Assembly (NCBI GenBank): GCA_015231405.1
Contig: JADGBR010000001.1
Location: forward strand, 347,964 to 385,761
Source: Candidatus Omnitrophota bacterium
Lineage (GTDB): Bacteria > Omnitrophota > Gorgyraeia > Tantalellales > Tantalellaceae
DNA length: 37,798 nt
Direction: 5' to 3'
The notes below the pieces were generated by a model that saw nothing but the letters and a program-made list of their open reading frames with translations, did not search any database and was not told the DNA's origin. The translations under genes and the position numbers were made by a program. This document shows, in pieces, positions 20,741 through 37,569 of this stretch. Every line of letters starts with the position of its first letter. Position 1 is the stretch's first letter.

Positions 20741-21059
20741 GATCTGTATCGTATATGTGACAACGCGCGATAAGGACGAGGCTCTTAAAATAAGTCGGCA
20801 TCTAACGGAAAAAAAGCTCATAGCCTGCGCTAATATATTTGACGGCATATTGTCAGTTTATGAATGGGAAGGTAGGCTTCTGGAGGAAAAAGAGGCCGTT
20901 ATTGTCATGAAGACCAGGAAAGAGCTTTTCGCTGATGTCGAGAAGGAAATAAAGACGGTACATAGTTATACCACTCCTTGTATAGTATCGATCCCCATGA
21001 CTTCCGCCTCCGGGGATTTCGCCGAATGGGTAATGAACCAAACGTCCCGGCGCGGTTAA
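20730..21059 (+). CDS. cutA: CutA-like divalent cation tolerance protein
   Basis: The 109-aa protein has the CutA1 signature: YVTTRDKDEALKISRHL, KKLIACANI, SVYEWEGRL with EEKEAVIVMKT, and HSYTTPCIVSIPM before the C-terminal FAEWV. CutA1 forms a ferredoxin-like trimer, similar in fold to PII proteins, and is linked to copper tolerance, although its actual role is unsettled. The start lies inside the end of the preceding methyltransferase gene, giving translational coupling. It is the last gene before a new promoter. Confidence 0.92.
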   Translation: MAVEICIVYVTTRDKDEALKISRHLTEKKLIACANIFDGILSVYEWEGRLLEEKEAVIVMKTRKELFADVEKEIKTVHSYTTPCIVSIPMTSASGDFAEWVMNQTSRRG

Positions 21060-21081
21060 ATAAAAAGAAAAGTTCCGTCAA

Positions 21082-21110
21082 TTAGCATTTCCAAAATCAT
21101 ATGGTATAAT
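21082..21110 (+). promoter_or_regulatory. Promoter for the BON-Tat operon
   Basis: TTAGCA (21082-21087) and a perfect TATAAT (21105-21110) are separated by 17 bases. The predicted start near 21117 leaves a leader of about 57 bases before the GTG at 21174. The four genes that follow are spaced 4 to 40 bases apart and are likely one transcript. Confidence 0.6.
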
Positions 21111-21173
21111 TTAGTTAAGATATCTAAAGAGCGAGGATCGCATTGAATATCAATAATAACGGAGGGAAACCCG

Positions 21174-21593
21174 GTGGAAAATTATAGCGATTATTCGGAC
21201 GACGACCTGAAGAGCGTGATAATCGAGAATATCAAGGTTCTTGGTGTTGACCCGGAGCTGGTCGACATTAAGATCGAGCCTGGTCCGGTAATAACCATAA
21301 GCGGAGAAGTGTCTTCCGAACGCGAAAAAAACAGGATAATACAGACCATCCTGGACATTGTTGGTATCGAAGAAGTCGTTGACGAGTTGGAGGTAATAGG
21401 AGGGAAATTCAGCGATTTTCACTCAGAAGATCACGAAGATGAGGACGAAGACCCAATAGATGATGATAATGAATCCATGGGTACCGAAGATCTTAATCGC
21501 TCCATGGAGGACGGGCTCCCGTATATTCCGCCGACGCAATCGCCTTTCGAGGAAGATAGAGAAAATAAAAAACGCCCGAAGCCGAGAAAATAA
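21174..21593 (+). CDS. BON-domain protein with acidic tail
   Basis: The 139-aa protein has one BON domain at about residues 9-75 (VDIKIEPGPVITISGEVSSE...VGIEEVVDELEV), a fold associated with membranes and phospholipid binding. The rest (82-139) is a highly acidic, probably unstructured tail that ends in a basic cluster (KKRPKPRK). There is no signal peptide, so it should be cytoplasmic or act at the inner membrane face. The GTG start is eight bases after GGAGG (21161-21165). No ATG gives a full BON domain, so GTG is chosen. Confidence 0.75.
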   Translation: MENYSDYSDDDLKSVIIENIKVLGVDPELVDIKIEPGPVITISGEVSSEREKNRIIQTILDIVGIEEVVDELEVIGGKFSDFHSEDHEDEDEDPIDDDNESMGTEDLNRSMEDGLPYIPPTQSPFEEDRENKKRPKPRK

Positions 21594-21604
21594 TTAGGTC
21601 CGTA

Positions 21605-21838
21605 ATGACTGATCCCGAAAGTAAATGGTACCATAATCCTCTAAGTATTGTTTTCGGGATAATTTTCTTAGGACCTCTTGGCCTAATACCCCTTTGGACA
21701 AGACCCGGCACCGGGCTTTTTCTCAAAGTATCGGTTAGCGCGGCTGTAGTTTTGTTGACCCTGTGGCTATGTTTTGCCACCGGGGATATGGTGTCTAAAG
21801 TGATGGTTTTGTATAAAGAACTTATGAAAGCTCAATAG
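21605..21838 (+). CDS. Small two-helix membrane protein next to tatA
   Basis: The 77-aa product has two hydrophobic segments, roughly residues 14-31 and 38-58. The motif SKWYHNPLSIVFGIIFLGPLGLIPLWTRP resembles small proteins with a zinc-free W-x-P loop found beside many envelope operons, but I cannot name the family. It lies 11 bases after the BON gene and 40 bases before tatA, so it is probably co-expressed with the Tat translocon. Its role is unknown. Confidence 0.6.
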   Translation: MTDPESKWYHNPLSIVFGIIFLGPLGLIPLWTRPGTGLFLKVSVSAAVVLLTLWLCFATGDMVSKVMVLYKELMKAQ

Positions 21839-21878
21839 TTGTTCCATGGGACCGCTCTTGGGGCAAAGGGAGAATATT

Positions 21879-22049
21879 ATGTTCGGACTTGGATTGCCGG
21901 AGATCCTGCTTATACTTGTGGTCGCGCTCCTCTTTTTCGGGGCGCAGAGGCTTCCGGAGATAGGTAGAGCCCTCGGAAGATCGCTTTCGGAGTTCAAGAA
22001 AGGTATGCAGGAATTCACTCAAGATAAGACCGATAACGAGAAAAAATAG
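21879..22049 (+). CDS. tatA: Sec-independent protein translocase TatA
   Basis: The 56-aa protein has the TatA plan: a short N terminus, one membrane helix (about 5-20), the FG hinge (20-21), then the amphipathic helix AQRLPEIGRALGRSLSEFKKG and a charged tail. TatA oligomers form the passage for folded proteins with twin-arginine signals. The frame is open to an ATG at 21846, but GGGAG at 21868-21872 is properly spaced for 21879, and TatA normally starts right before the helix. No tatB is present, as in minimal TatAC systems. Confidence 0.93.
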   Translation: MFGLGLPEILLILVVALLFFGAQRLPEIGRALGRSLSEFKKGMQEFTQDKTDNEKK

Positions 22050-22053
22050 CTCT

Positions 22054-22788
22054 ATGGACGGACTCTATCCTGATGAAGGGAAAAGACTCGATGTTATCGG
22101 GCATCTCGAAGAAATCAGAAAGCGTATACTGATATCTCTCATATTTATTTCCGTCTCCACAATAGCCGCTTTCTATTTTGGCGGCATGTTATTCGAGATC
22201 GTTAAACTTCCTGTTAAAGATTATGTGAAGGATTTTGTCTTCATAAGCCCTACCGAAGCATTTACCGCGTATTTTAAATTATCGTTATTAGCGGGATTCT
22301 CACTAAGCTTTCCGGTGATCCTTTACCAGGTATGGGCGTTCATCGCTCCGGCTTTTTCAGGCAAGATGAAAATGCGTCTTGGGCTCTGGCTCATGCTGAG
22401 CTTTTTACTTTTCATGGCCGGAATACTATTTGCGTACTTTCTGGCCGTGCCGGCGGCTTTAAGGTTCCTCCTCAGTTTCGGGAGCGAAATATCAGTACCT
22501 ATGATCAGCATCGGAAAATACATTTCTTTCTTTGGGGCAATGATCCTGATAGGTGGTATAGTTTTTGAAATTCCGATAGTGATCTCGATCGTCGTCGATA
22601 TGGGCTTTATAGATACAAAAACCCTAAGGTCAAAGCGCGCCTTAGCGTTCATTATGATTCTTGCCCTTGCGGCGGCCATAACGCCCACGCAAGATATTAT
22701 GAACATGATGATTTTCGCCGTGCCTATGTATTTGCTTTACGAAATAGGGATCCTTCTTGGGGTTCTTATTGAAATAAGAAGAAAATAG
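22054..22788 (+). CDS. tatC: Sec-independent protein translocase TatC
   Basis: The 244-aa protein has six predicted membrane helices and the TatC signatures: HLEEIRKR (17-24) with the signal-peptide-binding glutamate E20, SPTEAFTAYFKLS, FPVILYQVWAFIAPA, VFEIPIV and the C-terminal ITPTQD. In the first periplasm-adjacent segment after FIAPA, most TatC proteins carry a second key glutamate (E103 of E. coli); here the aligned residue is M105 (FSGKMKMRL). The start is four bases after tatA. Last gene of this operon; 268 bases of AT-rich DNA follow. Confidence 0.95.
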   Translation: MDGLYPDEGKRLDVIGHLEEIRKRILISLIFISVSTIAAFYFGGMLFEIVKLPVKDYVKDFVFISPTEAFTAYFKLSLLAGFSLSFPVILYQVWAFIAPAFSGKMKMRLGLWLMLSFLLFMAGILFAYFLAVPAALRFLLSFGSEISVPMISIGKYISFFGAMILIGGIVFEIPIVISIVVDMGFIDTKTLRSKRALAFIMILALAAAITPTQDIMNMMIFAVPMYLLYEIGILLGVLIEIRRK

Positions 22789-23056
22789 CTCATATTAGAT
22801 CGTAGTACCCTGCCGAGGAAAATCTGTACCTTTAAACCCATATTATTTAGATCTCTTTGGCGCTTTCCGCCCATAGAAGAAATAGGTTTATCCCAACTAC
22901 TGAACAACTAACAAATTCAAATCAGAATGTCGTTAGACTCTGAAAAAGTTGCATAGTATTTTTAAATATGGCATTAAACGTATACAAAGTAAACAACTTT
23001 AAAAAGAAACTAAATATAAAAAAATTAACATTGTTATCCAAAGAAAGGAGTGAATT
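22789..23056. other. AT-rich intergenic region upstream of rlpA
   Basis: No convincing gene is seen. The first half has a short GGCG/CGCC hairpin (near 22859-22871); the second half is very AT-rich and should hold the rlpA promoter, but I cannot choose a clear -35/-10 pair. A strong ribosome site (AAAGGAG, 23043-23049) precedes rlpA. I looked for a c-di-AMP or c-di-GMP riboswitch, which sometimes control rlpA genes, and saw no match I could defend. Confidence 0.4.
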
Positions 23057-23467
23057 ATGAGAACTTTATTAAAGAAATTCGTGGAGATCAGTTTGGCGTT
23101 CAGTATTTTAACATATACCGTGCCGGCATATTCATTTTTAACAAGCCTGGAAAGCGGGGGAGTTATCGAGGGAACTGCTTCATGGTATGCGGAATTCTCT
23201 CCGGGTGTCAGACCGACTACCGCGAACATGGAAAGGTTCGATCATCATAAATATACCTGCGCGATATGGGACATTCCATTTGACACCGTACTTGAGGTTA
23301 AGAATCTTCATAACGGTAAGGTCGTTCATGTCAGGGTTAATGACAGAGGGCCCGCGAAACGGCTTTGTCGAGAAGGAAGGGTTATCGACCTGACTAAGGC
23401 CTCTTTCGCTAAGATCGCCGATCTTGGCGAAGGTCTTGTAAAGGTGAGGGTGCGTATCGCGGAATGA
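23057..23467 (+). CDS. rlpA: RlpA-like septal ring lytic transglycosylase, exported
   Basis: The 136-aa protein begins with a signal peptide (charged start, hydrophobic 10-20, probable cleavage after TVPAYS near 26) and is otherwise a double-psi beta-barrel: GTASWYAEFSPGVRPTTANMERFDHHKYTCA, then LEVKNLHNGKVVHVRVNDRGP with catalytic-type D96, and VIDLTKASFAKIADLGEG. RlpA cleaves glycan strands that lack stem peptides at the division site. No SPOR domain is attached, so it lacks the usual septal targeting module. The start follows AAAGGAG by seven bases. Confidence 0.88.
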   Translation: MRTLLKKFVEISLAFSILTYTVPAYSFLTSLESGGVIEGTASWYAEFSPGVRPTTANMERFDHHKYTCAIWDIPFDTVLEVKNLHNGKVVHVRVNDRGPAKRLCREGRVIDLTKASFAKIADLGEGLVKVRVRIAE

Positions 23468-23542
23468 TCGCGTTTATCTTGGGAAGGCATTAAAACTCAA
23501 TAATTCTTTTTTTTGCACATCATAAAATATTGATTATTTAAT

Positions 23543-23570
23543 TTGATTATTCGGTGACTTCCCGTATAAT
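23543..23570 (+). promoter_or_regulatory. Promoter for the LysM-amidase gene
   Basis: TTGATT (23543-23548) and TATAAT (23565-23570), spaced 16 bases, match the housekeeping consensus. The predicted transcription start near 23577 is only six bases before the ATG at 23583, and there is no ribosome site, so the message would be practically leaderless. Confidence 0.6.
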
Positions 23571-23582
23571 TAAGTCTGATTT

Positions 23583-24371
23583 ATGATGTCTAAGAATAAA
23601 TTTGTCGCTTTTTTATGTCTCGTCATAGCCGCGGGCATATTATCCTCGTGCGGAACCACTTCAAAGGCCAAAAAAAAACAGGCCGTTGAACCCTCCTTGC
23701 CCAAAGAACCGTATCAGGATGTGATCATGATGCCTCCGGAGCAGCAGCCGGCCGACGTATACCACACAATAGCTCCGGGTGAGACGCTTTGGAGAATATC
23801 AAAGATGTACAACGTTGACCTGGAGACATTGAAAAGGGTTAACCGCATAAAGGATCCGACCGATATAGAGATTGGTACTAAGATACTTATTTCCAAAGGC
23901 GTCGTCAGAAAAGACAGGCTTAGTCTTTACCCGAACGCCTGCTGGAAATATATTATAATTCATCATAGCGCTACGGAAGAAGGGTCGTCAGCTCTATTTA
24001 ACATCGCTCATAAAAAAAGAGGGTGGAAGGGTGTAGGATATGATTTTGTGATCGACAACGGCACAAAGGGAAAAAGGGACGGGGAGATAGAAATGACACC
24101 CCGCTGGACTAACCAGGATGTCGGAGCCCATTGTTCGGCCGCCAGAATGAACGAGATAGGGATTGGGATCTGCCTTGTCGGAAACTTCTCAAAAGAAGGT
24201 GTTTCTAACGCACAGATGAAAGCCCTGGCCTACCTCGTGAGTGAGTTGCAAAGATATTATAAGATCCCCTCATCGAGAGTTTTGGGTCACGGCCAGGTCA
24301 AAGGAGCTACGACGGAATGTCCCGGCAGAAGATTTCCTTATTCGACCCTAAACGCGCAACTTTTAAAGTGA
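23583..24371 (+). CDS. Lipoprotein LysM N-acetylmuramoyl-L-alanine amidase
   Basis: The 262-aa protein has a lipobox LSSC (lipidated C23) after a hydrophobic signal, then a LysM peptidoglycan-binding domain (about 59-104, HTIAPGETLWRISKMYNVDL) and an Amidase_2/PGRP zinc amidase domain (about 120-262). Zinc ligands are visible as H127 in IIIHHSAT, H236 in GHGQVKG and C246 in TECPGRRFP. It should cut the bond between muramic acid and the stem peptide, anchored in an envelope membrane. The next ATG (23586) is also possible. It follows rlpA, so two cell-wall enzymes are adjacent but separately promoted. Confidence 0.9.
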   Translation: MMSKNKFVAFLCLVIAAGILSSCGTTSKAKKKQAVEPSLPKEPYQDVIMMPPEQQPADVYHTIAPGETLWRISKMYNVDLETLKRVNRIKDPTDIEIGTKILISKGVVRKDRLSLYPNACWKYIIIHHSATEEGSSALFNIAHKKRGWKGVGYDFVIDNGTKGKRDGEIEMTPRWTNQDVGAHCSAARMNEIGIGICLVGNFSKEGVSNAQMKALAYLVSELQRYYKIPSSRVLGHGQVKGATTECPGRRFPYSTLNAQLLK

Positions 24372-24524
24372 AGCTTTGATATCTTTTATTCGAAAATGTC
24401 GCGCCTGGCCTTCTAGAATATAGTCCCATAATTGTTCTGGCTAATAATCATTTCATCGGCTATTATATTGACATGTTATCTTGGAGCGGGTTCAAATTTT
24501 ATCTGGCTGAGGGAGGTAGTAAAA

Positions 24525-24926
24525 ATGGGTTTATTCGGGTTCAATTCCGGCAAATCTGAGGATAAAACGGACGCGGCCAATAGGAGACAGTTTGAAAGGG
24601 CACGGGTGAGGAACCTTGTCGCTCATAAGCCAAAAGAGGCGACTCAGCCTCAGATATCAAATCTATCGGACATCAGCGCCGGAGGACTTAAATTCTACTC
24701 GAATTATCCCTATGAGATTGGAGAAGTGATAGACCTCGAAATAAATTTCATGCAGCTTGAGGATCCGGTCAAAATTAAAGCGAATGTCATATTTTCCAAA
24801 CAGATGCCTAAGGTGAAGAAATATGAAATTGGGTGCAGGTTCCTGACAGTACCCGAAGATATCAGGGATTTTATAGATAAGAACGTTGATTCTATCCTTA
24901 AGGGTAACGAAGGTGAATGGGTCTAG
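24525..24926 (+). CDS. PilZ-domain protein
   Basis: The 133-aa protein has a PilZ domain with both c-di-GMP-binding elements: the arginine-rich R20-R21-QFE-R25 and D49-x-S51-x-x-G54 in LSDISAGGLKFYS, followed by beta-strands ending EIGCRFLTVPEDIRDFI. The likely role is a single-domain c-di-GMP receptor, perhaps for surface or secretion functions. The frame is open upstream to a TTG at 24432, but GGGAGG (24511-24516) lies eight bases before the ATG at 24525, which is chosen. TTGACA at 24468 may be a promoter element, with only a weak -10. Confidence 0.85.
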   Translation: MGLFGFNSGKSEDKTDAANRRQFERARVRNLVAHKPKEATQPQISNLSDISAGGLKFYSNYPYEIGEVIDLEINFMQLEDPVKIKANVIFSKQMPKVKKYEIGCRFLTVPEDIRDFIDKNVDSILKGNEGEWV

Positions 24927-24981
24927 TGATCTTCCCAGGTCTCTCTCTCCCGGCAATTAAAATATCTTTCTTTTCGAATTT

Positions 24982-26055
24982 ATGAAGATAGGAATTATAG
25001 GGTTACCACAATCAGGGAAAAAAAAGCTTTTCGAGCTTTTAACCTCCCACAGGATAAACGAAAAGGATCTCGCCTCAGGGAAGCCGCTCCTGGGGATAGC
25101 CGAAATAAGGGATCCCAGATTCGATAAACTGGTGGATATATATAAACCCAATAAACATGTCAAAGCCAAAATCAATATTGAGGTTCTCCCCAAGATAGAG
25201 CAGGATTCGGTCAAAAAAGGCTCTATTTTTAGAGATATCGCCGATACCGACGCTATGTGTCATGTTGTCAGAAAATTCAAGGATGAGTCTGTTTACCATG
25301 TGCATGGTTCGGTTGATCCAGAACGTGATATAAACGAGGTCAATTCCGAGCTTATACTTAACGATCTTATTTTTGTCGAGAAACGTCTCGAGAACCTGGA
25401 AAAGAATATCAGGAAGACCAGCGATAAAGACTTGGAGAGAGAAAAGGTCCTCTTATTGAAATTTAAGGAATCACTTGATAAGGAAATACCGTTAAGACTT
25501 TTAAAAGTCCCGGATGAAGACAGAAAACTTATCGCCAGCTATCCACTTGTGACGCGGAAAGAAATGGTGGTGGCGCTTAATGTATCCGACGACGAGATCA
25601 ACGACGCGTCGTATGTAAAAAAAATGCAAGACCGCTATAAAGACCAGGGCATAAAAATTATGCAGGTTTCGGCCAAGGTTGAGGCCGAGATAGCGGAGTT
25701 AGCCACTATCGAAGAAAAAAAAGAGTTCATGGGCGCTCTGGGGATCGAGGAGCCGGCTATAGACAAGCTAACCCGGCTATGTCTGGAAGCGCTTGATCTT
25801 ATGTCTTTCTTTACTGTAGGAAAAGACGAGGTAAGACAATGGACTATCCGAAAAGGCTCCCTCGCGCCCGAAGCCGCCGGGGCGATACACTCCGATCTCC
25901 AAAGAGGCTTCATCAGGGCGGAAGTTATCAAGTACGCCGATATGATCGAGTATCAGACCGAGGAAAAGGTTAAACAGGTAGGGAAACTTGATATTAAGGG
26001 TAAAGATTATACCGTTCAGGACGGGGATATTATGAATATACGGTTTAGTGTTTAG
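24982..26055 (+). CDS. YchF-like protein with degenerate nucleotide-binding motifs, TGS domain
   Basis: The 357-aa protein aligns along its whole length with YchF/OLA1, the translation-linked P-loop ATPase of the Obg group. Conserved blocks include DPRFDKLVDIYKP (44-56), CHVVRKF (93-99), VHGSVDPERDI, AEIAELATIEEKKEFM, FFTVGKDEVRQWTI and the C-terminal TGS domain (KDYTVQDGDIMNIRF). However the P-loop reads GLPQSGKKK (7-15) instead of GLPNVGKST, the Walker B DIAG is gone, the switch segment is shortened with loss of GxGLGN, and the G4 NxxE is NVSD. It is probably a non-hydrolysing paralogue. No ribosome site precedes the ATG. Confidence 0.8.
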   Translation: MKIGIIGLPQSGKKKLFELLTSHRINEKDLASGKPLLGIAEIRDPRFDKLVDIYKPNKHVKAKINIEVLPKIEQDSVKKGSIFRDIADTDAMCHVVRKFKDESVYHVHGSVDPERDINEVNSELILNDLIFVEKRLENLEKNIRKTSDKDLEREKVLLLKFKESLDKEIPLRLLKVPDEDRKLIASYPLVTRKEMVVALNVSDDEINDASYVKKMQDRYKDQGIKIMQVSAKVEAEIAELATIEEKKEFMGALGIEEPAIDKLTRLCLEALDLMSFFTVGKDEVRQWTIRKGSLAPEAAGAIHSDLQRGFIRAEVIKYADMIEYQTEEKVKQVGKLDIKGKDYTVQDGDIMNIRFSV

Positions 26056-26098
26056 TTTCCGATTTTCAGTTGCCCGTTGTCGGTTGATGGTGTTCTTT

Positions 26099-26467
26099 AT
26101 GGAGAGAGTTAGGATCGATCAGTGGCTTCATGCGGTACGGATATGCAAGGACCGCAAAGCCGCCAGAGAAATATGCGAAAAATGTCACGTTAAGATCAAC
26201 GGCATAAGTGTTAAACCTTCAAGGAAAGTATCGGAAGGCGAGGAGGTGGTAGTAAAGATCGAGGGGATCGAAAGGGTATATAAGGTAGAGAAAGCAATAA
26301 CGAAGAGGGTAGGCGCGAAGATAGCCGATACATGTAAAATAGACCTAACCCCGAAAGAAGAGCTCGAAAAACACGAATTTATCCGCAAGTTTGCCATGCC
26401 AGTAAGGCCAAAAGGTTCAGGCCGCCCATCCAAAAAAGATCGTCGTCAGTTGGAGAAATTTAATTAA
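26099..26467 (+). CDS. S4-domain RNA-binding protein, Hsp15/RqcP-like
   Basis: The 122-aa basic protein starts with an S4 domain (VRIDQWLHAVRICKDRKAA...HVKINGISVKPSRKVSEGEEV, about residues 4-60) and ends in a lysine/arginine-rich tail. Hsp15 in E. coli and RqcP in Bacillus bind the 50S subunit with a stalled peptidyl-tRNA and assist ribosome rescue; this small protein has the same size and layout. The reading frame is open from 26048, but the homologous part begins at MERVRIDQW, so ATG 26099 is taken. It follows the YchF-like gene by 43 bases. Confidence 0.82.
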   Translation: MERVRIDQWLHAVRICKDRKAAREICEKCHVKINGISVKPSRKVSEGEEVVVKIEGIERVYKVEKAITKRVGAKIADTCKIDLTPKEELEKHEFIRKFAMPVRPKGSGRPSKKDRRQLEKFN

Positions 26468-26616: not shown

Positions 26617-29600
26617 ATGTTTCTAATTAATAATAGTTTTTCAAAACTCATAAAAAAGATCGTGAATATAAGTACTGTCATAACATTTTCTTTGGATGTG
26701 ACAGGATATTCAATGGTTAACACTGCAGTCGTCAATCCCGCAATTATAGCGAACAAGTCAGTATCAAAAAAAATCGTCGATGATTTTATTTTACCTGAGA
26801 ATTTAGGAACGATAAAAGAGAAATATTTTAACGATTCACTTTTTAAAGCAAAGGATTTAAAGAACAATTTAGTGATCCATATACAGGACGCGCATTGTAA
26901 TTATAACGCTCAAATTAAGATCGCATCTCTGCTTGAGTACTTAAAAGAAAAATTTAATATAAAGGTCATTAATCTTGAGGGAGGAAGCGGGGAATATGAG
27001 TTCACGACATTTTACTCGATTAAAGATGAAAAGATCCGTGAAAAAGTAGCGGATTCTATCATGAGGGATGGGGAATTGAGCGGTGCCGAGTATTTCGCTA
27101 TAAATAATAAAGAAAAAATATATTCGTGGGGAGTCGAGGATAAGGAACTGTATTTGGCTAATCTCTATTCTTACCGGGATTGGTGCGGCTCCGAGGGAGC
27201 GGTATTGACAGACCTTGAGAAGTTGGAACATTCCGCGATGGAGTATGCCGCGAAGAATTGTTCCGATCTCGTTATAGCGTTATTGCTCAACAAGTCAGAA
27301 TACAGGTCCAAAAAAATGGAATTCAAGGAATATTTACTCAGGATCACAAGAGCAGCCAGATACTCGGGCATCGATATCGGGGATTACCCTTCCATCAGCA
27401 GATTGTTGAAAGTAGTGGCGATGGAAAAATACATTGATTTCGCGAAAGCTAATAAGGAGAGGGACGAGATCATTGACAGGGTCTTAAAAATACTTTCACG
27501 GTCAGAAGTCAATGAGTTCAGGGAGAAACTTATTCTTTTTAAAAATAAGGACATCCCGGAGAATGACTTTTATGAGTATCTTCTTTACAAAGCCGGATGC
27601 ATGGGCATAGAGATCGCTGATAACGCTAATCTCCGAAAATATCTGTATTATATAAAGAGATACGCTCAATTAGATAACTCCGTACTTATGGACGAGATAG
27701 AGAATATCGAAAGAGCAATGCTTAATTACGGCCAGAGCGAACATGTTTCAGGAATAATTCAAGTTCTTGAAATACTGGATAAGGTCAGCGATATAGTGAA
27801 GCTGGAGCTTACAAGCAAAGATTATGGTGAATATAAGGTGAATAAAGAGAGTTTCGACACCCCGGTTTTCGTTAAACTGCTTAGGGCCCTTCCGGATAAT
27901 AATTTTAATAATGAGGATGAAAAAGCAGCCGAAAGGGTATTGGATTATGCTAAACATATCAGTATGTTCTTCGCTTATTCTTTCGAGAGGGATGAAGCGT
28001 TCGTCAGGAATATCCGGTATTCCGCAGGTGAGGGCTCGGATCCCGGTAATAAGATAACGGTGCTTTTAACCGGAGGATTCCACGGCGAAAACATGGCGAA
28101 TATCATGCGGAAAAGAGGTTGTAACTTTATATCGATAGTACCCGTATTTAAGACTGGTGACCAGCCGAAAGATTATTACCATTCCTTTCTTAAAGGCGAG
28201 ATATCAGGAGTCTATCAGGAATACATGAAAAATGTCGGGATATCCACGCTTGCGGTCGCGTCCATGAACAATATCCTTGGAAAGGATCTCAGGTTGGGAA
28301 TGAGTGAAACGCTGGATATCGTTGCAGGAATAAGAGCCGCCAGGTTAGAACAGGCGTCCGGAAAATTGCTTATCGGATACAAGATAAAGGATCGGGAGGG
28401 AGTATTTTCTTATTTTAATATGGATGGGTCAAATATATCGTCTGGAAAGATCGTGGACGAAAACCAATACTATTCTATCGAGCCCATCTATTCCGTAAAA
28501 TCCCTTGAATCACCGGATATGTCCGATAACGATCTTTCTCATAAAGCGACTAATGAAAAGCTTCTGGACTTGATCAAGGGAGAATCGGTATATTTATATA
28601 ACCGCAACGATATCTATCCTGAAACGTATATACCGGATCTTGAAACAAAAGGATATCACGGATCGGAACATTACAAATATTTAGGGATACCCAAGAACAG
28701 AGCAGCTACCGTCAAGGAAATGCGGGCAAAATATGATATGAAGCTGGGACTGCTTAACGCGAACAACAGTGATTACAAATATAAAAAGGTACTTGAGTAT
28801 CCGATATTCATGGATTACTCACCCGAAGAAAAAAAGAAACTCATAGACATCGCTATGCGGATCAGGATCAATATTGTAGCCGGGCGTTACAGTTTGTTCG
28901 ACGGTGGGCCTTTACTCCATGCCAGGCGGGGGAATTATTCGCTTAAAGGTAATCTGGGCCAATCCGCGATTTGGATCGGTGAAAAAGCGCTTGATTCTCT
29001 TCGTGATGAGGAAATACTGATGGCACTATTGGAAGAGGCCCAGCATATTTTGTACCCGGAAAGGGTACACGGTGATGGAGGCCCTAAAGCGGGGCAAATA
29101 ACTCATTCGGGATACTTGAAGTACAAGCTGAGCTTATTGTCCAAAAAGAGCGGTGAAAGAATTAACGGATCTTTGGATAACACAGAGTTAGCCCCCGATG
29201 ATACGGTATTGCCGGATTTCTCCAATTACTCTCCGGAAGGTATTAGTAATGATGTGAGAAGTATATACGATACGGGAACAGGGGCAAAATCTGCTGAATC
29301 CGATGGTACCCTTATAGAAATGGCGAAACGGGATCGTAAGGATTATGAAAAATACGTGGTTGATTTTGAGAGCGAAGTAGAAAGGATGAAGTCAGAGTCG
29401 ATAGCGCTAAGCGTCGACTATCCTCAAAAGAGCGATCTCGATCTGATGCTAAAGAATGAGATGCCGGTACCTGAAAGCTACAGGATCCCCGTTAGGATTT
29501 ACGGGATTTTCACGCGGTTAACCGATGTAATGAAAGAACATATACAGGGTTATGAGGATTATTCCGGAGAATTGTTCTTTATGGACACGAACGAAGCCAA

Positions 29601-32600
29601 CGCGTTCGTTCTTAGAGGCGACAGGAACGTTTATTTTGGCAAGGGGCTGTATGAGCTGATGGTGAAGACGGCCGCCGCGATCGATTCCGGAAAACCATTG
29701 ACCGAAGACGCTATAGCGTTCATTATCGCCCATGAAATGGGGCATTTGATCCAAAATACGTCTAAGACAGGACTTACGCTCTCTGAGGGGTATTATGAAA
29801 ATGCGCCGGACTATTTAAAAAAAATGGCCCGTAATGAGGAGGATGACGCGGACAGGTGGGGTCTTTTCCTGATGGACAGAGCAAATTATTCCGTCATGGG
29901 GGCGATACAGGCCATGAAATGCCTGGAATTCGTTAGGAAGAACGCCAAGGATACGGCGATACTCGATTCGCATCCTTATACATCCGACAGGAGGAGAGCC
30001 ATAACAGACAGGATAGAGAACCAGAACTGGGAGATCTATCCTAATGCCACGAATGAAACGGTGCCGATGGATGACCTTCCGCCTAAATATGAGTATTCAA
30101 GGGAGATCGATCAGGAATATCTTATTAACGGTTCTTACGAAGATATCGAGGCATTCATAGGAAAAGCCGAAACAACTGATCAGGTCATATCCGGAATGGC
30201 AGCTCTAGGTGTGAAAAAACAGATGGAACTTGTGAATGTCCTCAGAATGGACCGTGAAATACGTGTCCAATTCCTTAAAAAAATTTTTATTGAGGCGGCA
30301 ATTAATATGGTGCAAAACTATTGTAGCTCGAATATCGGAGGGTCATGGGAGATCGTTAACGATGAGTTTAGAAAAAATACCGTAAATTATTCTGACCTTT
30401 CGCTTGCGGCAGTGATCAGCGAGTATGGCCCCGCCGGATTAATATCAAGCGCGTCAGTTGATCCGAAAAAAATAGTTTCAAGCGATAGTAACAAGCCCTA
30501 TGATATCGATAGGAATATCGAGAAAATAAGGAAGCAAAGCCAGGAGCCGGGTTACGATATATATAAAGCGAACATTCAGGAGGTCATTGACGCGCTAGCG
30601 GCAATAAACGGGATCTTAAGTTCGTTGGACGCCGGTATGCTAGACGATCTTCTGGTCGATCCGGAAAATCTAAGGAACGTTCAAACATTTTCAACAACGG
30701 ATGAGAATAGCTGCATATACGGTGTTGGCACAAAACCGGTAAAAACTGGCCTTACTAATTTAATAAGCGATCCGAAGACCCTGATATCGGGTTATTTATA
30801 TTCCAGGTTCATAGGGAAAACAGGTATGACCACAAAGATCGATAAGATAGGGTTCGCTAGAACACGGACCGACAACAGGTTGTTCGTGGAAGCGCCGGAA
30901 AGGTGGGATATGTCGGATCCCGATAAAAGGCATAAGATGAAAGAAGTGCTTTTGGTCAAGTACATCATTGCTTCGGCTGACCTGAACGTATGCGTGAAAT
31001 ACGCTTTCAAGGATCAGTTCGATCCAGCTAAATTCAATCTGGCAGGCCAGGATCAATTCGATACATCGTTGCAGAACAAGGCACTGGAAAAGATGATCGT
31101 AAACGATAAGGAACCTATCAAGGATTGGCTGAAGATAGCGGTGTTGCGAATGGAAGTTAATAACATGCTCGGGCTTACCAAAAGCATCGGTGAGTTAGAT
31201 AAAAACACAATAGATCGAATTCTTGACAGGCAGATTGTAAAACATGGGATGAGCGGAGACCAGGAAAAAATAATTAGCTTCAAAAGAGATATGCTCGAAT
31301 GTTTCGGCCCTAGGGAGGAGATAGTTACCGAATGTAAAATGCTGGTTAGAAAAGCGATAAACGGTGAGGAAGATCTTGCGCAGATAAAAGAAAAGATTCG
31401 GGTATTATTGGACGAAGCAAGAACAAATATGGGCTCGGCGATAAAAACATTTAATGTCCCGGACGGACTTATCGACGATTTTATTGTCGAGTTAGCCGGG
31501 ACGCTTTACCCTGGCGATGTTCTCATAGGCTCGGTTTACAGGGTTGATTCAATGGAAAGGTTCATCTTGGATATGGACCTGTGCTGTCGTAAAAACGCCA
31601 ATGATCCGTTAAGGCGAGACGAGGGATTATCGAGAATAATGAATGAAAGCGGATTCTTTAAAGAGATCGAGAATATCATGGAGGCAGATGACCTTGTTGA
31701 GCGGTACGGCAAGAAAACTTCCGAAAAGCTTAAGGATTGTTATAAATGGTATATGGAAAGTGGCGTTGCCAGGAACAACCATCATGATCTAGAAAGAATA
31801 GTATCCATTATGGCCAATAAATATTTGATCTCACACAGGTCAAGATCGCCTGAAACTTCAAGTATTTTCAGGCATGAAACAGGCCTTGATTATCGGGTCA
31901 GGGGTTATGAATTATACGACCCTGTAATGTCGTCGTTCTCTTTCGATGATCTCCTGGAATGTGATGACAATACCGCAATAAATATTTTCGAAGAAATATC
32001 CGAACTTGAGAAAGCAAAACAGCAGGCTGAACCCAATGTCACTAGCGTTACGCACCAGATGATAGAAGGGTTCACCAGAAAGCAGCTTGAGGATAACGGG
32101 AATGACCCGTCTAATATTTTCACGTTGATGGGGAAACTGCTGATGAAACAAAGATGTGGTCTGATGGATAACGCCCTTATCAGAAGATCCTCTGGGAGAA
32201 TAATAGATGACACTCTTTTAGGTATCACGATGCGTTTTCTGAATGATTTTCGATCGGATAACGGGAGCGTTATTAAATGGTTCAATGGGATGTTCCTGGA
32301 GAATAACGCGTTATCGTATATCGAGCGATATATCCTCCGTTATGCGGAACTTTACAAGTACGAATTGGAGACAAGGCTTAAGGGCAAGACAATGTTAAAA
32401 AATATCCCGACTGCGCTTCAGGTAGTCCATGAGGATATGCTCATAGGGCTTTGTGAATATCTTCTAATGAGCTCAAGTGAGAAATACATCCCTCAAGGGA
32501 GGATCGCCGGTATGTATTTACGCCTTCTGGAGAAGAAAAACAAGATCAATGCGGCAGCCGAGCTGTCGGATGAGCACAGGGAGATAGTACACAAGGCGCT

Positions 32601-35600
32601 GGACCTTGTCGCGCGTTCCTCCCCGATGTCGGTAAGTTTCCAGTTCCCTATCGCATTTAATCCGGCATCTGGGAATCACGATCTTCTTCATGACGAGACA
32701 AATATCGACATAAAAGAGACCGTTATCAATGTCGATCCGAAGGTCCAATATTTCGGGTGGAATATGGAAAGATACGAAGCGACATCCGTTTTTGTCACTG
32801 CTTTGGGCGAATATACGGAGGAGGAATTGAGAGAGCTGATGGAATCGAGGGCGATTTACCTTAAGAAAGTGAGCGATCAGAAATACAGGGGAGAACGTAT
32901 AGCTCTTCCGACCAATGACACGTTAACCCAGTTGATACAGGTACTTATTCTCAATAAAGCGGCTGAAAATGCCAACCCGGATACGGCTAAAAGCGGGAGG
33001 AGCGATCTCGAGAAAATTGCCGACGCATTCTCTTTTACCGCGGCTTGTGAGCTGAGAAAAGACAGGGACCGGAGGCCCGACTGCAAAGAGATCGCGACGC
33101 AATGGCAGTGTGTAACGTTGAAATATGACATGAGGGACTATCTAAGGATAGAGCCCGATACATTTTTCAGGATGTTATCTGAAATTAAGGAGCCTACAGG
33201 AGAACTTGAGAATATAATTGAAAAATATGTTGAACATCATAAGCTGTTCAGCCTGTATCCGCTATTCGCGCATCTTTTGTTAAGGCCGGAGACAGCAACG
33301 GGAATTTATGAAAGTCTCATTAAAGCCGTAAATCAGGCGAGGCCTATAGGTCTCGAGAAAGTTCATTACAGGAAGATACTTTCTTCGGTAATGAACGTGA
33401 ATTGCCCGCTGAGAAGGCTTTTTAACAAGTACGTTCAGACTCAGGGTGAAGGGTATCTATTCGGAGAGATCAAAGACCTCGCCGCAAGGGTAAAATGGCT
33501 GGAGGGGACGGTAAAAATGCCTAAATCCATCACACGCGACAATATCATCGATCTCTGGGAATCATATGATTTTTCGGAAGTTATTGCAGGCATGAGCGAT
33601 GAGAAAGCCATGATCGCGAATTTGCGTTTAGGTAAAACCGGCGTTGACGATATGTGGGATATGGTAAGCACGATCTCCGATGACGTCGGTAAACTGAAAA
33701 ATATCCATGATACCCTGGACCTGCCTAAGGACGCGCTAATGAAGAGACTTGCCTTTTACACAGATATGATCGGCAAGGTACTTTCCCCCCAAAGAAGGAA
33801 CAGGTACGGCGCAATGGCGTTCTTAATATGGGAAAGGCTTAATAAAGAAGAATACGAAAAAGACCTATCTGGTACGGTCGAGGTATTGTTGCGATTTATG
33901 CCGGAACCTAGCGAATTGAGGGATAAGATCGTTATGGAAATTATCGGTTCGATCTCACGCGATGTCGAAGACATTACAAAAGGCGCTTCCCTGCTGACCG
34001 ATAATAACATACTTTTCAAGAACAGGGATACACAGAGAGAGGACAGCGTTTTTGACGGATTAGCGGCGATGTTCAGCAATGTCAGCAGGGAAGAAAGAAA
34101 AGACATCCTTTTATGGCTACAGGGCTCCCGAGGAGGTAAACCAGGGTGCGTGAGCAAAATAGAGGACAAATTCAATATATCATTCGAAGGGTTGCCGGAG
34201 GACCTGAGACTGATGCCTGAGACATTGAGGAATAAATTCATAGATGAAATGATGTACGGAGATAACGGCGTAATGTCGTTATCTTTGGAAGAAGAGGTAA
34301 AAGGGAAGAACGGTAATAACGGCGGAGAGATAGTCAAATTGCAGGATACGACGAGACAATACCTTGAGAAGTTCTTTGACGAACACTTCAAGGACAATTC
34401 ACAGCAATTCAGGGATGAATTGAGAGTCCTTAAAAGGGCTTTTGTTCTCATGATGGAAGCGTTCACTCCGGTTAGAAGAGTTAAGGTCATGAAAGCGCTG
34501 ATTGACGCTTCGATGGACCCTGATTTCGATAAAATGCACCTGGGCCGGAAATTAGCGGTTCTAGCCGGTACGGGAGGGCCCGTGCTCATAAAGGGAGGAC
34601 AGTATCTTTCAGAGAATGAAACGCTGGTGCCTCAGGAAACTATGCGCAGGGAGCTAGGTAGAGTACGAAACAGCGCTCCCAAAGTATCTAAGATAGCCCA
34701 GGTAGGCACTATAGTGAGGAATACTCCAAGGAAAGGCATACAGGTCGTTGAAGTGAATAATTCTTTGGGAGAAGCGTCGATAAAACAGGTTAACAGGGGT
34801 AAATGGCTGGATATTTTTGCCGTCGTTAACGATCTCCTGGAAGCGATCAAGGCTTCAAAAGAGGTATCATCAGGTGAGGATGAAAAACAGCTAAGGAAAG
34901 AAGTCGACGGGTTTCTCGGGAAAAAAGAAAGGGCTATGCAGGATTGGGAAAGCCTCATCGATACGGTAGGTGATATCTCCGAGAAATACGGCATAACGCT
35001 GTCCGACAAAAAAGTGAGACTGAAATATTCAAGAGACGTCGTGTATAAAGTCGTACGACCCGAGCTTGACGTATCGCTCATAAACGATTATGTGGCGCTG
35101 GATTACATTTCCGCCAATATGGCTAACGAGTATTTACGAGGTAATCCTATACCCACGAAGGATATGGCGGAAACGGTCAAAGACTGGATAGGCATTGAAA
35201 AGGACCTCAATAACGAATACAGGTTCGATAATGATATTAAAGGGCTTGACGGAGACCCTGAGATGGAAGAATTCGCCTCAGAACTTAAAAAGCTGGGTCT
35301 TGATTTCAGGCACCCGGAAATATTTTTTCATAACGAGAAAGTGATGGTCGAAGAATGCGTTAAAGGCGTTTCTCTTGTCGAAACAAGTTCCGGGGACGAG
35401 AAGCTCATCAGGGAAAAATTGGAGCAGACAGGTTTTTATAAAAAAGGTTCAGAAGATTTCGATAACGCCATGGAAGTGATAAATAACGCCGTTAAGAATC
35501 ACAAAGATGTTAACGCGATAATGCGTAAGATCCTCCTATGGCAGATATTCGAAAAAGGTCTATTCCATGCTGATCTCCATCAAGGTAATGTAATGATCTC

Positions 35601-37569
35601 AGGGGACGGAGGCATATATATGATCGATAGGGGTAATGTGGGAAGGTTGAACAAACAACAGCTGGAAGGAGCGAAAAAGATCCTTAAGGGTGTACTTCTG
35701 GGGAATATGAAGACCACCACGGATAATACTACAGGTGTTGACTCTATAGTAGACGGAATAAAAATGATATTCGAAAATGCCGTTTATCCCGATGGGGTAT
35801 CTCCGGCTATTTCTGCCGTTAAAAGAGAGGATATAAAAAAGATCATCGATGACGCCGAGCTCAGAAAGGACGACCTGAGGAAGGTCATCCTCAGAATAGC
35901 TTCAAAAACGCTTGAATCAGGCAGGAATAACCAGGGCGGAAAGGACCTTTCAACCTTCATGAAGGCCATGACACAGGCTATGTATTTATTCCCGGTAGAC
36001 TCGACTAACGGGCTTGAAACCTTCAGGGATCTATCAAGATATATCGGGTTGTCTGATGAAGATATCATGACGGCGCTTGATCAGCAAAAAGACAGGATAC
36101 CGGCTGACAATGGTTTGGGAACTTTTGAAGAAAAAGCTAAGGGGAGCGGTGTCGCGCTTTCCATGGATGACCTTTATCTGACTTTGCAGAATAAACTATC
36201 TGTATCTCTTGGAAAAATATATTTTGTCGGATGGCTTTCAAGGCACTTTGAGACAATCTGGCAGAATATCTTCAAAAAACGTTTTTACGACACAAAGAAC
36301 TGGATCATTGAGAACAGAGAGCGTTTGTTCGACGAATATCTACTTGGCTTTATAAAAAGCCGGGACGTTAACCTCGTAGAATTCATAGAGGCGAGATCGA
36401 CGCCGGAAGAGCTCAGAAAGATCTACATGGATTATCTTGGTGACAGGATGAAAAAAGGAAAGATTTCGAGATTTGAAAAATATATTACGATATTCCTCTT
36501 CTCGATTGGACGGCCAATATTATCTGAAGTCGCATCGGGCATGATCGAGGACATAAAAAAACAACAAAATATCCTGAAGCCGGTATTGATGGCGAAAGCT
36601 TTGAACTACATGAGAGTAAGAACGAGGTTCAGCGGCGAGGTGACGGGGCTGGAGGATGGAAATACCCACGATTCGGACGCCCTCGATACTGAAGAAAGAG
36701 GCGTTGTCCCAGATAGAAGAATTTCCAAAATAACGGGTGATCCAGTTCAGGACGGCAGGGAAAAGGTCTTTTTTGACGACATCGGAGAAGGCGCAGTTTT
36801 ACCTGTGGCATTACCGGCGGAAGATGAGAACGGGGGTCGTCTTTCTCTCAAGGGAGCAGATGAATTAGAAAGCGTTCCAACGGAAGTAAAGGACAACGAT
36901 AAGATAATAAGGGCCATACAAGTCCTATTATCTCATATACGCAAAAGGGATGAGAATTACATCCTCTTAATGCCGAAACCTGATGAAGACATTTCTTTTT
37001 TTAACAGGGCCATGAAAGTATGGAAGATCGCGAGGGGTAGTCTCGAAAAGGATTATCAGATATCAAACTTGACCATCCGGTTCTACGACAAGGACAATAT
37101 CGGGCAGTTAGTACAGAAAACCAGCCAAGAAGCCGGTAAAGGTTCACGGGTCCTTATGTTCGTGAATGAAAACGAGGAGAAAGAGATAGCTTTGAAGAAA
37201 GGGATTGAAAAGACAGAAAAAAACGGCATGATGTATTTCAACGATGTCCCCTGCATCATGGAAAGGTATGATGAAAAGGGAATAAATAAATGTATGATCG
37301 GTACGCATATAACAATAGGGCTTGGCTTGACTGATCTCATTTATAACAAATATGCCGATAACGACGCTAACAAATACGCGATCATCAATGGTCTTGCCGA
37401 ACTATTAGCGCGTTTAGGGGATCCAAAATCAGCCGAGGAGATATTAAAAGATGAAAACGCATGGAAGACGCTTGTGAACGGAGAACATTTTATTGAGATA
37501 AAAGCATTCTCTTCGGAAGAGGTGGAGGCGCAATTCGAGGCTATCGAAGAAGTTGCGAGATCTTTATAA
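26617..37569 (+). CDS. Giant multidomain protein: TraB/Tiki-like, M48 metalloprotease, UbiB-like kinase
   Basis: This single uninterrupted frame encodes 3650 residues. A hydrophobic segment (about 14-40) may be a signal or anchor. Residues about 80-545 look like a TraB/Tiki/ChaN-type domain (VIHIQDAHCNYN 86-97, INLEGG 118-123, GGFHGE 486-491). Residues about 985-1130 are an M48 metalloprotease: HEMGH (1039-1043), EEDDADRWG (1074-1082, third zinc ligand probably E1075) and DSHPYTSDRR with H1119. About 1130-2590 is mainly helical and unassigned. Residues about 2640-3130 resemble a UbiB/ADCK kinase: K2659-GGQ, GEASIKQV (2718-2725), K2811 in VVYKVVRP, HADLHQGN (2984-2991) and D3004-RG. The last 500 residues are unassigned. 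The ATG follows AAGGGA. Function unknown; the fold calls are by motif only. Confidence 0.85.
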   Translation: MFLINNSFSKLIKKIVNISTVITFSLDVTGYSMVNTAVVNPAIIANKSVSKKIVDDFILPENLGTIKEKYFNDSLFKAKDLKNNLVIHIQDAHCNYNAQIKIASLLEYLKEKFNIKVINLEGGSGEYEFTTFYSIKDEKIREKVADSIMRDGELSGAEYFAINNKEKIYSWGVEDKELYLANLYSYRDWCGSEGAVLTDLEKLEHSAMEYAAKNCSDLVIALLLNKSEYRSKKMEFKEYLLRITRAARYSGIDIGDYPSISRLLKVVAMEKYIDFAKANKERDEIIDRVLKILSRSEVNEFREKLILFKNKDIPENDFYEYLLYKAGCMGIEIADNANLRKYLYYIKRYAQLDNSVLMDEIENIERAMLNYGQSEHVSGIIQVLEILDKVSDIVKLELTSKDYGEYKVNKESFDTPVFVKLLRALPDNNFNNEDEKAAERVLDYAKHISMFFAYSFERDEAFVRNIRYSAGEGSDPGNKITVLLTGGFHGENMANIMRKRGCNFISIVPVFKTGDQPKDYYHSFLKGEISGVYQEYMKNVGISTLAVASMNNILGKDLRLGMSETLDIVAGIRAARLEQASGKLLIGYKIKDREGVFSYFNMDGSNISSGKIVDENQYYSIEPIYSVKSLESPDMSDNDLSHKATNEKLLDLIKGESVYLYNRNDIYPETYIPDLETKGYHGSEHYKYLGIPKNRAATVKEMRAKYDMKLGLLNANNSDYKYKKVLEYPIFMDYSPEEKKKLIDIAMRIRINIVAGRYSLFDGGPLLHARRGNYSLKGNLGQSAIWIGEKALDSLRDEEILMALLEEAQHILYPERVHGDGGPKAGQITHSGYLKYKLSLLSKKSGERINGSLDNTELAPDDTVLPDFSNYSPEGISNDVRSIYDTGTGAKSAESDGTLIEMAKRDRKDYEKYVVDFESEVERMKSESIALSVDYPQKSDLDLMLKNEMPVPESYRIPVRIYGIFTRLTDVMKEHIQGYEDYSGELFFMDTNEANAFVLRGDRNVYFGKGLYELMVKTAAAIDSGKPLTEDAIAFIIAHEMGHLIQNTSKTGLTLSEGYYENAPDYLKKMARNEEDDADRWGLFLMDRANYSVMGAIQAMKCLEFVRKNAKDTAILDSHPYTSDRRRAITDRIENQNWEIYPNATNETVPMDDLPPKYEYSREIDQEYLINGSYEDIEAFIGKAETTDQVISGMAALGVKKQMELVNVLRMDREIRVQFLKKIFIEAAINMVQNYCSSNIGGSWEIVNDEFRKNTVNYSDLSLAAVISEYGPAGLISSASVDPKKIVSSDSNKPYDIDRNIEKIRKQSQEPGYDIYKANIQEVIDALAAINGILSSLDAGMLDDLLVDPENLRNVQTFSTTDENSCIYGVGTKPVKTGLTNLISDPKTLISGYLYSRFIGKTGMTTKIDKIGFARTRTDNRLFVEAPERWDMSDPDKRHKMKEVLLVKYIIASADLNVCVKYAFKDQFDPAKFNLAGQDQFDTSLQNKALEKMIVNDKEPIKDWLKIAVLRMEVNNMLGLTKSIGELDKNTIDRILDRQIVKHGMSGDQEKIISFKRDMLECFGPREEIVTECKMLVRKAINGEEDLAQIKEKIRVLLDEARTNMGSAIKTFNVPDGLIDDFIVELAGTLYPGDVLIGSVYRVDSMERFILDMDLCCRKNANDPLRRDEGLSRIMNESGFFKEIENIMEADDLVERYGKKTSEKLKDCYKWYMESGVARNNHHDLERIVSIMANKYLISHRSRSPETSSIFRHETGLDYRVRGYELYDPVMSSFSFDDLLECDDNTAINIFEEISELEKAKQQAEPNVTSVTHQMIEGFTRKQLEDNGNDPSNIFTLMGKLLMKQRCGLMDNALIRRSSGRIIDDTLLGITMRFLNDFRSDNGSVIKWFNGMFLENNALSYIERYILRYAELYKYELETRLKGKTMLKNIPTALQVVHEDMLIGLCEYLLMSSSEKYIPQGRIAGMYLRLLEKKNKINAAAELSDEHREIVHKALDLVARSSPMSVSFQFPIAFNPASGNHDLLHDETNIDIKETVINVDPKVQYFGWNMERYEATSVFVTALGEYTEEELRELMESRAIYLKKVSDQKYRGERIALPTNDTLTQLIQVLILNKAAENANPDTAKSGRSDLEKIADAFSFTAACELRKDRDRRPDCKEIATQWQCVTLKYDMRDYLRIEPDTFFRMLSEIKEPTGELENIIEKYVEHHKLFSLYPLFAHLLLRPETATGIYESLIKAVNQARPIGLEKVHYRKILSSVMNVNCPLRRLFNKYVQTQGEGYLFGEIKDLAARVKWLEGTVKMPKSITRDNIIDLWESYDFSEVIAGMSDEKAMIANLRLGKTGVDDMWDMVSTISDDVGKLKNIHDTLDLPKDALMKRLAFYTDMIGKVLSPQRRNRYGAMAFLIWERLNKEEYEKDLSGTVEVLLRFMPEPSELRDKIVMEIIGSISRDVEDITKGASLLTDNNILFKNRDTQREDSVFDGLAAMFSNVSREERKDILLWLQGSRGGKPGCVSKIEDKFNISFEGLPEDLRLMPETLRNKFIDEMMYGDNGVMSLSLEEEVKGKNGNNGGEIVKLQDTTRQYLEKFFDEHFKDNSQQFRDELRVLKRAFVLMMEAFTPVRRVKVMKALIDASMDPDFDKMHLGRKLAVLAGTGGPVLIKGGQYLSENETLVPQETMRRELGRVRNSAPKVSKIAQVGTIVRNTPRKGIQVVEVNNSLGEASIKQVNRGKWLDIFAVVNDLLEAIKASKEVSSGEDEKQLRKEVDGFLGKKERAMQDWESLIDTVGDISEKYGITLSDKKVRLKYSRDVVYKVVRPELDVSLINDYVALDYISANMANEYLRGNPIPTKDMAETVKDWIGIEKDLNNEYRFDNDIKGLDGDPEMEEFASELKKLGLDFRHPEIFFHNEKVMVEECVKGVSLVETSSGDEKLIREKLEQTGFYKKGSEDFDNAMEVINNAVKNHKDVNAIMRKILLWQIFEKGLFHADLHQGNVMISGDGGIYMIDRGNVGRLNKQQLEGAKKILKGVLLGNMKTTTDNTTGVDSIVDGIKMIFENAVYPDGVSPAISAVKREDIKKIIDDAELRKDDLRKVILRIASKTLESGRNNQGGKDLSTFMKAMTQAMYLFPVDSTNGLETFRDLSRYIGLSDEDIMTALDQQKDRIPADNGLGTFEEKAKGSGVALSMDDLYLTLQNKLSVSLGKIYFVGWLSRHFETIWQNIFKKRFYDTKNWIIENRERLFDEYLLGFIKSRDVNLVEFIEARSTPEELRKIYMDYLGDRMKKGKISRFEKYITIFLFSIGRPILSEVASGMIEDIKKQQNILKPVLMAKALNYMRVRTRFSGEVTGLEDGNTHDSDALDTEERGVVPDRRISKITGDPVQDGREKVFFDDIGEGAVLPVALPAEDENGGRLSLKGADELESVPTEVKDNDKIIRAIQVLLSHIRKRDENYILLMPKPDEDISFFNRAMKVWKIARGSLEKDYQISNLTIRFYDKDNIGQLVQKTSQEAGKGSRVLMFVNENEEKEIALKKGIEKTEKNGMMYFNDVPCIMERYDEKGINKCMIGTHITIGLGLTDLIYNKYADNDANKYAIINGLAELLARLGDPKSAEEILKDENAWKTLVNGEHFIEIKAFSSEEVEAQFEAIEEVARSL

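Follow-up and report, generated by a model that had tools for sequence, protein, structure and literature searches.

Within a 37,798-nt stretch of contig JADGBR010000001.1 from a Candidatus Omnitrophota bacterium (the window), one open reading frame (ORF) encodes a 3650-residue protein that joins an M48 metalloprotease domain to an ABC1/UbiB-type kinase domain. As far as sequence comparison can establish, the M48 domain, a linker of about 1000 residues, and the ABC1 domain make up a core that is passed on as a single unit, with its two active sites almost always intact. By the same kind of evidence, this core sits between exchangeable ends that the same genomes place on many unrelated giant proteins. 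We tentatively favor a reading in which the core functions as an exported protease-kinase cargo carried between these ends.

The frame begins with an ATG at 26617, closes with a stop codon at 37567-37569, and contains no internal stop. An earlier, sequence-only reading of the window had noted motifs of three enzyme classes in a single open frame. All of them could be located in this uninterrupted frame, and their order recurs in paralogs and in other genomes: VIHIQDAH (residues 86-93), GGFHGE (486-491), HEMGH (1039-1043), NEEDDAD (1073-1079), KGGQ (2659-2662), and HADLHQGN (2984-2991). By chance, a protein of this composition would be expected to contain HExxH 0.05 times and HxDxHxxN 0.003 times. 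A Pfam scan of the protein returned nothing else of weight beside M48 and ABC1. Its layout in window coordinates is as follows.

26617..37569, + strand: whole ORF, 3650 residues, ATG to stop (reading frame)
26617..26706, + strand: signal-peptide-like start, residues 1-30, basic and then hydrophobic, the weakest case of the family (heuristic; below the transmembrane threshold)
26770..28296, + strand: type-1 N-module, TIKI-like, residues 52-560, with D91, H93, E121, and GGFH at 486-489 (invariant in 29 members)
28297..29448, + strand: variable region, residues 561-944, no match (model mostly of low confidence)
29449..30066, + strand: M48 metalloprotease domain, residues 945-1150, with HEMGH 1039-1043, NEEDDAD 1073-1079, and SHPYTSDRR 1118-1126 (profile, fold, motifs)
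30067..33789, + strand: linker from M48 to the helical+ABC1 block, residues 1151-2391, conserved in length class and falling into two groups by sequence (family comparison)
33790..34536, + strand: helical block, residues 2392-2640, conserved together with the kinase (family comparison)
34537..36108, + strand: ABC1/UbiB-type kinase, residues 2641-3164, with KGGQ, GEAS loop, VVYK, EKDLNNE, HADLHQGN, and DRG (profile, fold, motifs)
36109..37182, + strand: lineage-specific region, residues 3165-3522 (low-confidence model)
37183..37566, + strand: type-1 C-terminal tail domain, residues 3523-3650, ending EVARSL-COOH and common to many other giant proteins (sequence comparison)

The protease domain passes the Pfam M48 model (PF01435; 2.9e-12, 47.2 bits against a cut-off of 20.3), and a profile of the domain matches the PDB entry 3c37 at 1.2e-21 and BepA at 4e-14. 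BepA is also the top Foldseek match for a 1200-residue model that includes this domain (probability 1.00, but E=0.057), in agreement with a gluzincin fold. Among the aligned family members, only one, which is truncated by a contig end, lacks the HExxH motif or the region of the third zinc ligand. These matches identify a real M48 domain whose active-site motifs are intact and whose activity is predicted, as the description of an active-looking protease in the sequence-only reading had implied. In the stretch between the N-module and M48, where the window copy reads EEAQH, two paralogs (L006 on contig C10 and L007 on C29) have additional motifs of HExxH or HExxx-like form (HELSH, HEVGA).

The kinase domain passes the Pfam ABC1 model (PF03109; 2.9e-16, 59.8 bits against a cut-off of 22.9). 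A profile built from the kinase region picks out COQ8A and ABC1 proteins of bacteria, at 3e-33 to 6e-22, and the nine best Foldseek matches for a second model are all ABC1 proteins, with COQ8A at 1.5e-7. The window protein carries the catalytic motifs KGGQ (KxGQ), VVYK (the catalytic Lys), HADLHQGN (HxDxHxxN), and DRG (DxG). The A-rich loop does not read AAAS in the window copy, where it is GEAS; many relatives have GSAS and a few have AAAS. HExxH and the Glu/Asp downstream of it, together with the catalytic Lys, HxDxHxxN, and DxG, are preserved in nearly all of the family; a few individual members depart from this, and in two the C-lobe of the kinase is unaligned. The proposed UbiB-like kinase can thus be accepted as a real ABC1/UbiB-type domain with predicted kinase activity. 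An assignment to UbiB proper was rejected, as the NCBIfam UbiB equivalog model gives 73.2 bits against a cut-off of 487.55; further against a true UbiB, the six ABC1 ORFs of the source genome all lie in large frames (1885-3773 residues, one frame being truncated by the start of its contig). Some ABC1 Pfam matches in relatives (loci L090 and L091; G090/G091 type) are weak and ordinary Ser/Thr kinase-like, with a start reading MDLIGK..., and fall outside the giant family.

The source genome is a draft assembly of 3.66 Mb in 93 contigs, and five of its six ABC1 ORFs also have an upstream M48 domain. To follow this arrangement across the phylum, 384 genomes were searched with helical+ABC1 and M48 profiles, and the fetched loci were then scanned with hidden Markov models. 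Both domains occur in 26 ORFs, always with M48 first and separated by 769-1282 residues (median 982), in frames of 1795 to >6600 residues. Besides the five in the source genome, these ORFs are spread over several families and more than one class. The check proposed with the sequence-only reading, a search for the same domain order in other genomes, thus had a positive outcome. Pairwise M48 and ABC1 distances are correlated (r=0.92, with 0 of 5000 permutations as high; r=0.73 among divergent pairs), and a joint M48/ABC1 tree has two deep clades, each of which crosses families and more than one class. The linkers form two main groups and four unlinked members when compared by BLAST, and hhalign aligned only 45 columns between the linkers of the two core clades, with a probability of 2%. 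The roughly 1500 unmatched residues that had been described between protease and kinase hold when counted to the KGGQ motif, but only about 1240 remain when the count stops at the conserved helical+ABC1 block.

The ends of the protein have a different distribution from its core. The type-1 N-module is present in 174 of the 384 genomes; its first-look candidates number as many as 67 in a single genome, its frames reach 11896 residues, and the source genome alone has 43 matches, some of them fragments. Many type-1 giants also share a tail with an ExxxSL ending (...EVxxSL-COOH). The last ~130 residues of the window protein are such a tail, common to dozens of other giants, so the ~500 terminal residues are not wholly without a match as had been stated. 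In the source genome (contigs C2 to C93, loci L065-L084), about 40 type-1 N-modules start ORFs of up to 8035 residues whose middles are otherwise unrelated (FHA, cNMP-binding, metallophosphatase-like, AAA/VWA, TPR). After its kinase, the C29 paralog (L007:3555-14207, minus strand) has weak matches to a GNAT acetyltransferase and an M78-like zinc peptidase; therefore the region behind ABC1 varies too.

Core relatives that lack the type-1 module mostly begin with an unrelated N-module of ~380 residues (named here for its motif LSPYEKDRI) that contains LIKYFLA.LT.PEDDLWVNLSPYE.DRI. The tail of this second type differs from that of type 1 and reads PGGIDF...PVIINITPI..LP..LG. Type-2 modules are present in 137 of the 384 genomes, a single one of which holds as many as 79 candidates, and the families in which they are heavily amplified (f29, f31, f35, f44) are absent from the listing of type-1 genomes. 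Because type-2 modules are as similar across the core clades (50-58% identity, where M48 has 26-33%) as within them (53-59%), this module does not track the descent of the core. The proteins closest to the window protein in their core, L106 and L107, are 43-44% identical to it in M48 and 37-38% in helical+ABC1, and they carry other ends, with N-modules that are unrelated to that of the window protein (22-24% identity, which is chance level). Among ORFs with a complete C terminus, 47 pair the type-1 N-module with tail 1, 23 pair type 2 with tail 2, and none is mixed, while 20 type-1 ORFs and one type-2 ORF have no tail call (Fisher 5.6e-19 on the called ORFs, which were hand-chosen and are phylogenetically nonindependent, with several tail-2 sequences having also built the tail-2 profile). 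One type-2 copy (G315:C61, L105) looks interrupted, as its module occupies a 364-residue frame of its own, with an in-frame TAG, immediately ahead of the core ORF. A start of the form NLQ.Q..F.P, common to L010, the C66 locus (L005), and L089, is perhaps a third kind of N-module. L010 (1538-7003 in G000:C11), just downstream of the window, is a giant ORF with a signal-like start, an NLQVQTPFKP N terminus, and an AAA_5-like match.

Nearly all intact members, with either type of end, start with a basic N terminus and then run into a segment that ranks among the most hydrophobic of the whole protein, in many cases with an AxA motif; the signal-peptide calls come from our own heuristic rather than from SignalP. 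Transmembrane segments are few in most members, and hydropathy reveals no internal one in the window protein. The Cys content of the giants of the source genome is 0.55%, against 1.46% in the other window genes, a crude comparison in that some of the latter look metal-binding. Because of these signal-like N termini, few transmembrane segments, and low Cys content, we infer that the body of the protein leaves the cytoplasm by way of an N-terminal Sec signal peptide. The sequence-only reading had flagged an extracytoplasmic kinase as a difficulty of topology, and the kinase does indeed look extracytoplasmic.

The front of the protein may itself be an enzyme. Residues 52-560 are conserved in paralogs, and D91, H93, E121, G122, and GGFH at 486-489 are invariant across 29 members of the type-1 module. 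In TIKI enzymes, a spacing of 28 residues separates a His from a Glu (85/113 in Bcr135, 3902/3930 in RRSP), and there is a distal His as well; bacterial effectors are among the known TIKI proteins (PMC6254334). The window protein shows D91-x-H93, with Asp in place of the first Glu of ExH, then E121 at +28 from H93 and a distal H489. A model of the front domain (predicted local distance difference test of ~88) has strands at 85-91, running into DxH, at 117-120, ahead of the Glu, and at 480-486, ahead of GGFH, with a helical insert between the last two, an order that fits TIKI. Four ORFs of other genomes match the ChaN model PF04187 at 9.9e-6 to 3.8e-4, below the curated cut-off, and the N-module profile matches the same four at 1.9e-59 to 3e-86. 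Foldseek returned no TIKI structure among the matches shown, the window copy has no Pfam match and no TIKI-family profile match, and a PDB sequence search with the N-module gave chance-level matches only. The TraB/Tiki-like front domain of the sequence-only reading keeps its motif spacing, its strand order, and the weak ChaN matches of its relatives, but gains no match in profile or structure searches with the window copy. Membership in the TIKI superfamily is likely, though less secure than the M48 and ABC1 assignments, and the type-1 front end may be a TIKI-type hydrolase.

These observations can be assembled into a possible mechanism. The giants would form an exported enzyme family of Omnitrophota, in which the M48-ABC1 core is the cargo in the middle and the matched N-module and C-tail serve as a lineage-specific frame for export, anchoring, or delivery. 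Protein cleavage would fall to the M48 domain, while the kinase would spend adenosine triphosphate (ATP) on phosphorylating or remodeling a target. As little ATP is available beyond the cytoplasm, the most plausible place for the cargo to work would be inside a neighboring host or prey cell that it has entered, or on the surface of such a cell. A more ambitious version, which we consider doubtful at present, is that lineage-specific N/C pairs carry giant enzymatic cargos in a delivery or surface-display system of Omnitrophota that has not been described, in which case M48-ABC1 would be the first known UbiB-type kinase to be exported and also the first to be joined to an M48 protease.

Several points weigh against an exported cargo. 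The N-terminal segment of the window protein is among the weakest signal-like cases of the family. No secretion machinery was identified. Both the enzymatic activities and the entry into other cells are predicted roles, and the pairing of ends could be produced by lineage alone among ORFs that we selected. Moreover, M48 and ABC1 proteins elsewhere are mostly housekeeping enzymes.

The giants might instead maintain the envelope of their own cell, an explanation that we regard as unlikely overall but worth serious consideration. In BepA fashion, the M48 domain would attack misassembled outer-membrane or giant surface proteins, under the regulation of an ABC1 domain that would serve as an ATPase or scaffold linked to lipids or quinones. 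Such a role would suit an ancient and conserved core, the periplasmic location of BepA as the closest known M48 fold, and the presence of both PGM48 and ABC1K among plastoglobule core proteins (PMC12587418). However, the periplasm is normally without ATP, five copies in one genome and a patchy presence elsewhere are unlike a single maintenance enzyme, and an exchange of ends is not expected. Lower in probability is a body that remains in the cytoplasm, where the hydrophobic N terminus would be no working export signal or a mere anchor, and the protein would be a membrane-linked protease with a lipid- or quinone-related kinase. The weak N-terminal segment of the window copy fits this arrangement, and the same N-module begins giants with AAA, FHA, and cNMP-binding domains. 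UbiB-type kinases are also normally found on the ATP side. Nevertheless, the basic N terminus and hydrophobic core, often with AxA, recur in nearly all intact members, the positive-inside rule predicts that the downstream part is exported, and Cys content is low. Type-1 giants with FHA, cNMP-binding, or AAA/VWA domains are compatible both with a target cell that contains ATP and with a body that stays in the cytoplasm. An assembly chimera or chance motif matches, which a draft in 93 contigs and the split of M48 and ABC1 parts into neighboring ORFs in a few relatives (G015, G126, G319) might have suggested, are refuted almost beyond doubt by the same domain order in five paralogs and about 20 other genomes and by the correlated distances.

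An exported protease-kinase cargo would be of interest for more than one reason. Giant proteins are a hallmark of Omnitrophota that is thought to relate to predation or symbiosis, and most are unannotated. The recognition that exchangeable cargos are flanked by one of two shared sets of end modules offers a handle to annotate many of these proteins at once, together with a testable rule for export. If true, an ATP-using kinase tied to a protease outside the bacterium would also raise the question of where its ATP and substrates are located. Upstream of the giant ORF, the genes at 19937-26467 are ordinary: SpoU methylase, CutA1, BON, TatC, DPBB lytic transglycosylase-like, LysM amidase, PilZ, YchF C-domain, and S4.

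The phylum suggested by the sequence-only reading is borne out by the matches to named loci, 79 of 79 of which are Omnitrophota, although the shared ends and the invariant M48-linker-ABC1 unit lay beyond its view. Others have linked giant ORFs of this phylum to symbiosis or predation (PMC10066038). Those ORFs resemble the giants described here in being presumed exported or surface proteins that are poorly annotated, but the text on them does not contain the terms ABC1, M48, or peptidase, and we found no account there of end modules or of an M48-ABC1 core. Another paper mentions giant Omnitrophota proteins with other domains. In the open-access literature, preprints aside, we found neither an M48-UbiB fusion nor an exported UbiB kinase.

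Several parts of the protein have counterparts among known systems. BepA and related M48 proteins share the HExxH, downstream Glu/Asp, and HP..R motifs, and BepA is the best fold match, but it is a stand-alone protein of ~490 residues with TPR repeats, whereas the M48 domain here is embedded in a giant protein with a kinase. The atypical kinases ABC1, UbiB, and COQ8 share the fold and catalytic motifs, including KxGQ, HxDxHxxN, and D.G. By comparison, the kinase of the giants is apparently exported, lacks its own transmembrane pair, is embedded in giants, and has an A-rich loop that is mostly GSAS or similar. With the TIKI superfamily (Tiki, ChaN, Ere, RRSP), the front module has in common DxH, Glu at +28, distal GGFH, strand order, and relatives with weak ChaN matches, and it differs in its Asp for the first Glu, its long helical insert, and the lack of a Foldseek match. 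The plant plastoglobule pair PGM48 and ABC1K brings an M48 protease and ABC1 kinases into one compartment (PMC12587418), but as separate proteins of a chloroplast lipid droplet and not as a giant fusion. In architecture only, the giants recall polymorphic toxins and MARTX-type proteins, which also combine constant ends with an exchangeable middle. No homology to the delivery modules of those toxins was detected and both ends of the giants are lineage-specific; where a polymorphic toxin has a constant N terminus and a variable C-terminal toxin, the giants have a constant C terminus as well and vary in the middle.
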